Of a stretch of DNA of 64,000 nt, positions 14,108 to 16,941 are shown one piece after another. The position numbers and the translations under genes are program-made. This DNA comes from Demequina rhizosphaerae (GTDB lineage Bacteria; Actinomycetota; Actinomycetes; Actinomycetales; Demequinaceae): positions 124,001 to 188,000 of the forward strand of contig NZ_BBMC01000004.1 of assembly GCF_000971255.1 (NCBI RefSeq), read 5' to 3'. The notes below the pieces were generated by a model that had not been told where the DNA came from, did not search any database, and saw only the letters and a list, made by a program, of their open reading frames with translations. How positions within the stretch are numbered: the stretch's first letter is position 1; every line of letters starts with the position of its first letter.

Positions 14108-15427
14108 TCAGCCGTCGAGGCCGAGCATCCCGCGCCACATCGCGGGGAAGCCGGGCATCGTCTTCGCGGTGGTGCCGACGTTCACGACGCGCACGTCGGG
14201 CACAGCGAGCCCGACGATCGCCGCGAAGGTCGCCATGCGGTGGTCGTGGTACGTCTCCATGTCCGCGCCGTGCAGCCCCGCGACGCCGTCCTCGGGCAGC
14301 CCGCCGAAGGCGAGCGACGCCTCGTCCGCCGTGCACGTGCCCCCGAGGCGGGTCACCTCGGCGGCGAGCGCCGCGAGGCGGTCCGTCTCGTGGCCCCGCA
14401 GGTGGCCGATGCCGGTGAGCCGGCTGGGCCCCTGCGCGACGGCGCACAGCGCCGCGATCGTCGGCGTGATCTCGCCGGCGGGGGAGAGGTCGGCGTCGAT
14501 GCCGCGGACGGTGCCGTCGCCAGTCACGGTCATGACGTCGCCGTCGAGCGTGCACGTCGCGCCCATGCGGGTGAGCAGCTCGGGGTAGTACGCGCCGGGC
14601 TGGGTGGTCTCCGCGGGCCAGCCGGGGATGCGCACGGTGCCGCCCGCGACGAGCGCGGCCGCCATGAACGGGCCGGCGTTGGAGAGGTCGGGCTCGACCC
14701 GCACGTCGCCCGGGCGGATCTCGCCGGGGTGGACGATCCAGGTGCGCTCGTCGGGCTGGTCGACCCGGATGCCGGCCTCGCGCAGGGTCGCGCACGTCAT
14801 GTCGATGTGCGGCAGGCTCGGCAGCGTCGCACCGGTGTGGCGCACGGTGAGGCCCTCGGGCAGGCGCGGCGCCGTGAGCAGCAGCCCGGTGACGAACTGG
14901 GAGGACGACGACGCGTCGACCTCGACCACGTCCGGGACCTCCGCGGGCGGCGTCACGGTGAAGGGCAGGGTGCCGCGGCCGTCGTCGTCCACGTCGGCGC
15001 CGAGCAGGCGCAGCGCGTCGAGGAGGGGGCCCATGGGGCGCACCCGCGCACCCTCGTCGCCGTCGAAGCTCACGGGCCCGTCGGCGAGCAGCACCATCGG
15101 CGGCACGAAGCGCATCACCGTGCCGGCGAGGCCGCAGTCGACGTGGGCGCCGCCGCGGATCGGTCCGGGCGTGACGCGCCAGTCGTCGCCGGAGTCGTCG
15201 ACGTCGATCCCCAGGCCGCGCAGCGCGCCGATCATGAGGTCCGAGTCGCGCGAGCGCAACCCGCCGCGCATGGTCACGGGCTCCGCGGCGAGCGCCGCGA
15301 GCACGAGGTGGCGGTTGGTGAGCGACTTGGAACCGGGCACGGAGACGGTCGCGTCGAGCGGACGATGCGCGAGGGGCGCGTCCCACGCCTCGCCGGGGCC
15401 GGTGCCGGTGGGGAGGGCGCCGCTCAC
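14108..15427 (-). CDS. aroA: 3-phosphoshikimate 1-carboxyvinyltransferase (EPSP synthase)
   Basis: A 439-residue EPSP synthase of the shikimate pathway. It starts MSGALPTG from GTG 15427, with the shikimate-3-phosphate-binding VPGSKSLTNRHLVLAALA near residue 30. GLAGTVMRFVPP and LTGIGHLRGHETDRLAALA are further family blocks. The GTGA overlaps the stop of the DoxX-like gene, so the two are coupled. The frame runs farther upstream only as a shadow of the DoxX-like gene. Confidence 0.96.
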   Translation of the reverse strand: MSGALPTGTGPGEAWDAPLAHRPLDATVSVPGSKSLTNRHLVLAALAAEPVTMRGGLRSRDSDLMIGALRGLGIDVDDSGDDWRVTPGPIRGGAHVDCGLAGTVMRFVPPMVLLADGPVSFDGDEGARVRPMGPLLDALRLLGADVDDDGRGTLPFTVTPPAEVPDVVEVDASSSSQFVTGLLLTAPRLPEGLTVRHTGATLPSLPHIDMTCATLREAGIRVDQPDERTWIVHPGEIRPGDVRVEPDLSNAGPFMAAALVAGGTVRIPGWPAETTQPGAYYPELLTRMGATCTLDGDVMTVTGDGTVRGIDADLSPAGEITPTIAALCAVAQGPSRLTGIGHLRGHETDRLAALAAEVTRLGGTCTADEASLAFGGLPEDGVAGLHGADMETYHDHRMATFAAIVGLAVPDVRVVNVGTTAKTMPGFPAMWRGMLGLDG

Positions 15428-15942
15428 GCGGCGCGCTTCTTGGAGCCGGCGGCCTTGAGAGCCGCCTTGGCCTCCTTCTCCTTCGCCTTCGTCTCCGCGG
15501 CCTTCTCCTTGGCCTTCGCCTTCTTCGCCTTCTTGCGGTCGATGTGGCGCTGGCTGTGGCCCGCCGTCGCGGCGAGCAGCACGCCGCCGACGAGCGAGAG
15601 GTTCTTGAGGAACTGCTCGAGCTCCTCCTCCTTGCGCGTCTCGTCCTCCTCGTTCCAGAAGGGGTGGGCGAGCGCGGCGGTCGCGCCGGCGAGGCCCGCG
15701 AGGCCCAGCGCGGCGGCGCGCGGGCTCCGCGACAGCGCGAGCGCGGCGGCGAGCGCGACAGAGGCGGCGCCGTGGACCTTCACCAGGTCGACGGTCTTCA
15801 CCTCCTCGAGTCCCAGCTCCTTGAGGGCGGGCTCGACGGTGGGGGCGACGCGCTCGGCGCGCGCCTCGGGCTCGAGATAGCTCTGGACGCCTCCGTAGAC
15901 GAACCACGAGGCGAGCAACGGCCTGGCAAGTGCACGCAACAT
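15424..15942 (-). CDS. DoxX-family membrane protein
   Basis: A 172-residue protein with about four hydrophobic segments, starting [18 protein letters not shown], and a C-terminal tail of Lys/Ala/Glu repeats (about residues 135-172). It fits the DoxX family. DoxX-like proteins next to redox-stress genes are often linked to oxidative stress, and this one is divergent from the redox-sensing sigma factor. TAGCGT lies 7 nt before the ATG (leaderless candidate). It is coupled to aroA by GTGA. Confidence 0.8.
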
Positions 15943-15982: not shown

Positions 15983-16010
15983 GGGAATGATGTCGGCCGC
16001 GGTGCGGTTA
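15983..16010 (+). promoter_or_regulatory. SigR-type promoter (GGGAAT-N18-GTT) of the sigR-rsrA operon
   Basis: GGGAAT at 15983-15988 is followed after exactly 18 nt by GTT at 16007-16009. This matches the known actinobacterial SigR/SigH consensus GGAAT-N18-GTT. It lies upstream of the gene for that sigma factor, so positive autoregulation is expected, as in Streptomyces and Mycobacterium. The transcript would start close to 16017-16020, where an in-frame GTG (16020) could begin a longer SigR isoform. Confidence 0.85.
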
Positions 16011-16094
16011 CCGACCGATGTGACGACCACCGTGGAGAGGCTTGCGGCGTCGCGTGCACCGGCACGGCGGCGCACCGCTGTACGCTCGCAACCG

Positions 16095-16700
16095 ATGACC
16101 GACGCAACAGAGTTCGACTTCGAGTCCGAGGCGCTGTCCTACATGGACCAGCTGTACGCGGCCGCCCTGCGCATGACGCGCAACGGCGCCGACGCCGAGG
16201 ACCTGGTTCAGGAGACCTTCGCGAAGGCGTTCGCGGCGCAGGACAAGTTCACGCCGGGCACCAACCTCAAGGCGTGGCTGTACCGGATCCAGACGAACGC
16301 GTTCATCAACAGCTACCGCAAGAAGCAGCGCGAGCCGAAGCGCTCGGACGCGGACACCGTCGAGGACTGGCAGCTCGCGGCCGCCGCGGAGCACACCTCG
16401 AGCGGGCTGGCCTCGGCCGAGGAGGCGGCGCTCGACTCGCTCGGCGACGACGAGATCCGTCAGGCGCTGTCGGAGCTGTCGGACGACTTCCGGATGGCCG
16501 TGTACCTCTCCGACGTGGAGGGGTTCGCCTACAAGGAGATCGCGGAGATCATGGACACCCCGGTGGGGACGGTCATGTCGCGGCTGCACCGTGGCCGCAA
16601 GCTCCTGCGAGAGAAGCTTCGGGACTACGCCGCCGAGCGTGGTCTCTACGAGAGGACCCCGGTGAAGAAGAACAAGGACGGGGGTGCGTGCCGTGCCTAA
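16095..16700 (+). CDS. sigR: Redox-responsive ECF sigma factor SigR/SigH
   Basis: A 201-residue group-IV sigma factor with region 2 ([21 protein letters not shown] ... [21 protein letters not shown]) and region 4 ([23 protein letters not shown] ... [13 protein letters not shown]). Sequence and partner gene (rsrA) identify the SigR/SigH group controlling thiol-oxidative stress. TACGCT (16081-16086) lies 8 nt before the ATG. GTG 16020, in frame behind the SigR-type promoter, would add 25 residues, like the unstable SigR' of Streptomyces. Confidence 0.95.
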
Positions 16701-16941
16701 GCCGGAGTGCGAGGAGGCGCTCGACCGCCTCTTCGAGTACATCGATCACGAGCTGCCCGAGGATGAGATCCATCGGATCGGGGAGCACCTCAAGGAGTGC
16801 GGGCCCTGCGAGGCCGAGCACAAGATCAACGAGAAGATCAAGCGGCTCGTCAACAAGGCGGGCCACGATGTCGCGCCGGACGACCTCCGCGCGCGCATCC
16901 TCACGACGATCCGCGCGACCCGGCCGGACGGCGCCACCTAG
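16684..16941 (+). CDS. rsrA: Zinc-containing anti-sigma factor RsrA
   Basis: An 85-residue ZAS-family anti-sigma factor with the HxxxCxxC motif (HLKECGPC, about residues 35-42) and an earlier Cys (PECEEAL) that completes the redox switch. RsrA binds SigR and releases it when the thiols are oxidised. GTG 16684 overlaps the sigR end by 17 nt; GTG 16693 is an alternative start. The gene is followed by a strong terminator. Confidence 0.95.

Follow-up and report, generated by a model that had tools for sequence, protein, structure and literature searches.

We consider it likely that sigR-rsrA of Demequina rhizosphaerae is read from two promoters, that a start codon stands at, or directly beside, the 5′ end of each of the two mRNAs, and that the choice of promoter thereby sets the N-terminus of the sigma factor. 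The genes lie in a 64-kb window, by which we mean the whole stretch of DNA that was analysed. The short SigR isoform has 201 amino acids, runs from ATG 16095 to a stop codon at 16698–16700 (16095–16700, forward strand) and matches the TIGR02947 SigH_actino model with 309.2 bits against a cut-off of 251.55. The anti-sigma factor gene rsrA (16684–16941, forward strand) overlaps the end of sigR; its product matches TIGR03988 antisig_RsrA with 73.2 bits (cut-off 62.5), and an H-X3-C-X2-C motif is visible in the translation. The matches to both curated models and the adjacent, overlapping open reading frames identify the pair as a SigR/SigH-actino ECF sigma factor and its RsrA. On the other side of the start region, a divergent 172-aa protein is encoded at 15424–15942 on the reverse strand. 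One base 5′ of the protein's ATG is AGGAGG, with a TAGCGT box close upstream. At the cut-offs applied, neither Pfam nor NCBIfam gave a match, and the stretch is also present in several close Demequina. One Demequina genome holds a second, partial sigR match (G026:C1:2681954-2682238) with 89% identity over residues 107–201.

The upstream promoter, p2, is of the SigR type, with a −35 element GGGAAT at 15983–15988, an 18-nt spacer and a −10 element GTT at 16007–16009 (15983–16009, forward strand). The accessible text of PMC4803200 gives GGAAYR-(N17–18)-GTT as the optimum for Mycobacterium tuberculosis SigH, and p2 conforms to it. GGGAAT-N18-GTT occurs once in the window, where 0.03 matches are expected, and ten times in the 3.03-Mb genome, where the reversed-pattern control gives none; a chance origin of the SigR-type promoter before sigR is unlikely. 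Ten nucleotides past GTT, one more than the commoner Demequina value of 9, stands GTG 16020 (16020–16022, forward strand), the predicted start codon of a long isoform and the predicted 5′ end of the p2 mRNA. It lies 75 nt before ATG 16095 in the same open frame with no intervening stop, and thus heads a 25-codon N-terminal extension (16020–16094, forward strand). A sequence-only reading of this DNA had placed p2, GTG 16020, a TACGCT hexamer and ATG 16095 at these positions and had proposed the 25-residue extension, all of which direct reading confirmed. Absent from that reading is ATG 16018, which immediately precedes a TGA and forms an out-of-frame start-stop, ATGTGA (16018–16023, forward strand), overlapping GTG 16020.

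Comparison within the genus covered 37 sigR loci, drawn from 36 of 37 same-genus genomes, including that of the window, and from D. mangrovi. The assembly of Demequina G029 contains no close sigR, and the counts exclude six loci that duplicate other Demequina records (L031–L033 and L035–L037) and one paralogue (L173). A GGAAT-N18-GTT site precedes sigR at all 37 loci (with N19 in one), and each has an in-frame ATG or GTG after GTT, with no stop, at a distance of 8 nt in 2 loci, 9 nt in 25 and 10 nt in 10. The sequence-only reading had looked to relatives for conservation of the in-frame GTG 16020; what is conserved is an RTG, and not GTG itself, with ATG at 24 loci and GTG at 13. By that reading's own test, a break in the frame between the GTG and the ATG in close relatives, whether by stop or by frameshift, would refute the proposal; no such break occurs at any of the 37 loci. 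The extension varies between 15 and 53 codons, with 25 codons in 19 of the 37. Counted with fixed anchors on a FastTree tree of the Demequina loci, there are at least 12 changes of length from long to short start, each of them by whole codons, and 16 from the long start to the conserved FE..AL core. The extension is open in the SigR frame at every locus; of the two alternative frames, one is open at none of the 37 loci and the other at 21. The protein sequence of the tail is poorly conserved past a loose M-T-x-T start, and the codon-position signal is weak (p 0.03 for the whole tail and 0.07 for codons 9–17, among 12 same-length sequences of the 37, close relatives picked for their 25-codon tails). 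The fixed start spacing and the keeping of the frame, combined with a poorly conserved tail, indicate that the position and frame of the long start, and not the sequence of the tail, are under strong constraint.

The downstream promoter, p1, is represented by TACGCT (16081–16086, forward strand), the predicted housekeeping-type −10 box (TANNNT) of a short transcript, which is followed by 8 nt and then by ATG 16095. The box sits inside the extension and is read there within Val-Arg-Ser. At all 37 Demequina loci a TANNNT box ends exactly 8 nt 5′ of the short start (TAGGCT in 21, TACGCT in 13, others in 3); the 8-nt placement claimed for the hexamer in the window is confirmed and proves invariant across the genus. 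Among 166 loci, which add 129 from other taxa, TANNNT stands 8 nt before an in-frame RTG at 130. A scan of spacings from 3 to 14 nt gave otherwise 31 cases at 5 nt and one each at 6, 9 and 11–14 nt. Each of the 31 RTGs at 5 nt directly precedes another RTG at 8 nt, the short start, and the pairs represent a possible double start. No excess of Shine-Dalgarno matches was found at the short start, where a 4-nt match occurs in 8 of the 37 Demequina loci against 11 expected by shuffling. At the long start the raw count of loci with a 4–5-nt match is likewise 8 of 37.

Elsewhere in the window's genome, the gap between such a box and ATG is mostly shorter. TAGGCT is followed by ATG after 6 nt in 24 of 51 cases, after 7 nt in 19 and after 8 nt in 2; for TACGCT the corresponding numbers are 20, 10 and 3 of 39, with sigR among the last three. 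Reversed-pattern controls gave 14 matches for TAGGCT and 27 for TACGCT, and because of the latter figure much of the TACGCT-ATG set may be chance. Set against the 6–7 nt that prevail elsewhere, the 8-nt gap at p1 could mean that its mRNA has a leader of one base. A gap of this length could lower translation of short SigR. A TAGGCT box at a gap of 6 would put an in-frame TAG stop into the long form, which does not explain the avoidance of 7.

The 129 loci beyond the Demequina set comprise 73 from named relatives, 14 from same-order genomes (14 of 22 compared) and 42 from a class search (taken from the 286 genomes of the class that gave a match). L103 and L124 stand for a single record and are counted separately. 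A GGAA[T/C]-N17–20-GTT site is present at 117 of them, and 56 have an in-frame RTG 8–10 nt past GTT, 46 of these at exactly 9 nt. RTG at 8–10 nt in other frames occurs 8 times (7 without the duplicate), and the in-frame background is 2.26 per offset. The layout is found in Cellulomonas (13 of 13), Actinotalea (5 of 5), Isoptericola (2 of 2), Cellulosimicrobium (2 of 2), Georgenia (1) and Actinomyces (1). Janibacter, Knoellia, Kocuria and Brachybacterium fall into a leadered class, and the three Promicromonospora loci have no recognised SigR-type site. Over all 166 loci, 93 show the leaderless layout, 59 have an in-frame start further down behind a Shine-Dalgarno-like match and are candidates for leadered starts, since the 4-nt criterion used for that match is loose, 12 have no recognised site and 2 are neither. 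TANNNT-N8-RTG is present in 86 of the 93 leaderless loci, 36 of the 59 leadered ones, 6 of the 12 without a site and both of the others. On a FastTree tree, the leaderless and leadered labels change at least 21 times, with 68 of 158 inner branches under 80; for the leaderless group, the starred branches force only 5 of 23. Two database labels in the set may be wrong: L058 is a metagenome-assembled genome labelled 'Proteobacteria' with an actinobacterial sigR, and the sigR start-region offsets of L096, 'Streptomyces sp. NP160', equal those of L126 and are unlike those of Streptomyces-like loci. The elements, their spacing, their conservation and the keeping of the frame are established by these comparisons, which support the two-start reading first proposed for this DNA and reveal a layout that is widespread rather than special to one genome.

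SigR-type sites elsewhere in the genome show how often a start codon lies this close to the promoter. Relaxed patterns found 18 and 24 sites, with 2 and 1 in the reversed controls, for a union of 28 including sigR. Five of the 27 other sites (L187, L188, L201, L211 and L222) have a start codon 8–9 nt past GTT, with the 8-nt offset at L187 and L222. The genes concerned encode a DsbA-like protein, a photolyase, a DUF1206 protein, an F420-dependent oxidoreductase and a CoA-binding protein. In the DsbA-like protein, the photolyase and the F420-dependent oxidoreductase the domain begins at residue 3–5, so these three starts cannot lie much further in; all five genes are apparently leaderless SigR targets. 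The remaining 22 sites have no start at 8–10 nt as scored. Further sites precede genes for Fe/Mn superoxide dismutase, a ferritin-like protein, flavin-dependent oxidoreductases, GTP cyclohydrolase II, a lumazine-binding protein and an Rdx protein, and these make a plausible redox regulon. A strict scan, in which 1 of 10 sites had a near start codon, had suggested that this feature is special to sigR, an idea dropped when the relaxed scans gave five other genes. We also rejected the idea that the SigR promoter intrinsically includes the start codon, because most of the 27 other sites lack it and several genes have their ribosome sites 28–60 nt downstream.

Three other readings of the start region dispense with the long isoform as proposed, alter its initiation or make it the sole product. 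The p2 mRNA might have a 75-nt untranslated leader and yield the same short SigR from ATG 16095, with the in-frame GTG incidental. Chance open frames are common in high-GC DNA, as the one other frame open in 21 of 37 loci illustrates, and the weak codon-position signal would suit this view; against it stand a start locked 8–10 nt past the −10 element in all 37 loci, length changes that are all whole codons, and the lack of ribosome-site excess at the short ATG, and we regard it as very improbable. We give slightly more weight, while still judging it quite unlikely, to transcription from A16018, in which ribosomes would meet AUG-UGA first and the start-stop would dampen or couple translation of the overlapping GUG long form. 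A16018 is a purine, 8-nt offsets are seen at L187 and L222, and ATGTGA recurs at the long start in Demequina, but this is so at only 3 of the 37 loci (L001, L002 and L004), and at that position close relatives carry either TTG or no start. Least probable of all, to the point that we give it hardly any credence, is that the long protein is the sole SigR, with TACGCT no promoter and ATG 16095 unused. The long frame is indeed open throughout, as this would have it, but the view has against it TANNNT boxes placed precisely 8 nt 5′ of an in-frame RTG at every one of the 37 Demequina loci and at 130 of the 166 loci in all, and the spacings of 3–14 nt hold nothing besides 8 (130), 5 (31) and the singles at 6, 9 and 11–14.

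Two nested starts, each with its own promoter, thus remain our preferred reading, and the parallel that bears on it most closely is the sigma-R/sigma-R′ system of Streptomyces coelicolor (sigRp1/sigRp2). As far as the accessible parts of the sources describe it, that system likewise has a SigR-type upstream promoter, an in-frame start between the promoters, a longer N-terminus and a downstream p1. By motif, all 37 Demequina loci match these features of the sigma-R′ circuit with a p2-type site, an in-frame extension start and a predicted p1. The available text of PMC4921905 and PMC5472188 gives the Streptomyces extension as 55 or 58 residues and the short start as GTC; in Demequina, by contrast, the predicted 5′ end coincides with the long start, and the window has ATG as its short start codon. 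The seven Streptomyces-like loci in our comparison (L131–L137, family f37) have an in-frame ATG 49–88 nt past GTT, preceded by a purine-rich ribosome site, an arrangement consistent with a leadered sigma-R′. None of the seven shows the TANNNT-N8-start layout, and two also have a close in-frame RTG, an ATG at 11 nt in L134 and a GTG at 13 nt in L132.

In mycobacterial reporters, according to the accessible text of PMC4633059, an RTG at the 5′ end is both necessary and sufficient. The p2-to-start spacing of 8–10 nt fits an RTG at the predicted 5′ end of the transcript. Of the mapped SigH-dependent starts in M. tuberculosis, three lie no more than 5 bp from the start codon and four lie past it, according to the available part of PMC4803200, whose authors see in them possible leaderless mRNAs and alternative forms of the proteins.

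We infer the transcript ends, leaderless translation and the use of p2 by SigR, as well as a short start shut out on p2 mRNA and an unstable long form, in a circuit that would run as follows. In unstressed cells, housekeeping RNA polymerase would use TACGCT at p1 and make a leaderless or nearly leaderless mRNA for short SigR, which RsrA would keep inactive. Thiol oxidation would free SigR to transcribe its own gene from GGGAAT-N18-GTT at p2. The p2 mRNA would begin at GTG 16020 and be translated from its end into SigR with 25 additional residues. The short ATG would be silent on this mRNA because no ribosome-binding site serves it there, and promoter choice alone would pick the N-terminus. Long SigR is probably short-lived by analogy with Streptomyces, where sigma-R′ has a half-life of about 10 min (accessible text of PMC4921905) and its tail makes the protein a Clp substrate (accessible text of PMC5472188); the response would then be strong and transient. 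A more speculative extension, which we put forward as possible but unlikely, is that much of the Actinobacteria builds the SigR-RsrA switch from two nested leaderless promoters, each with its own start codon, with sigma-factor choice alone picking the N-terminus, and that the p1 gap is fixed at 8 nt to give a poor mRNA with a one-base leader, which would hold SigR below RsrA and fill the role of the rare GTC start in Streptomyces.

The fate of the long form is the part of this scheme with the most substantial competitor. Both isoforms could be made while the tail is not destabilising and instead alters RsrA binding or is neutral, the in-frame start existing only because a leaderless mRNA needs one. 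The tail sequence is hardly conserved beyond the loose M-T-x-T although the frame is kept, and no consensus SigR site lies near clpP, as might be expected on such a view; the short life of Streptomyces sigma-R′ and the Clp-directed tail, as far as the available portions of PMC4921905 and PMC5472188 document them, speak against it, and we think it rather doubtful. The patterns scanned gave no SigR-type site within 600 nt before the clpP domain matches. For clpC there is one degenerate site, GGCAT-N18-GTT, about 70 nt 5′ of the ATG (L229, about 1361–1386), and a TAGCCT box overlaps it. As far as motif scanning goes, the clpP and clpC results neither support nor exclude a Clp feedback. An unstable long form remains the version we favour.

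Other actinobacterial genes offer partial likenesses. According to the accessible text of PMC4921905 and PMC10027907, M. tuberculosis sigE also has several promoters, one leaderless mRNA and isoforms; its alternative isoforms, unlike the one proposed here, are shorter and arise from an internal promoter. The present case differs from the leaderless mRNAs of Actinobacteria in that a single gene contains two such starts, one nested within the other, from which proteins with different N-termini would be made. In the literature searched, part of it accessible only in excerpt, we found no case in which both isoforms of a SigR are leaderless, and no nested double-leaderless layout or account of its spread; the founding sigma-R′ papers lay outside that scope, and an earlier description is possible. 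Judged from the motifs, the circuit would be of the known sigma-R′ kind, and the nested double-leaderless arrangement appears new.

The long start in Streptomyces apparently lies behind a ribosome-binding site, and the same logic seems to operate here without 5′ leaders. If this is true, isoform choice would be purely transcriptional, and each sigR of this layout would have two genuine protein products, only one of which appears in a one-start annotation. The locus would then provide an easily tested case in which leaderless translation decides the N-terminus, and perhaps the stability, of a sigma factor in oxidative stress.
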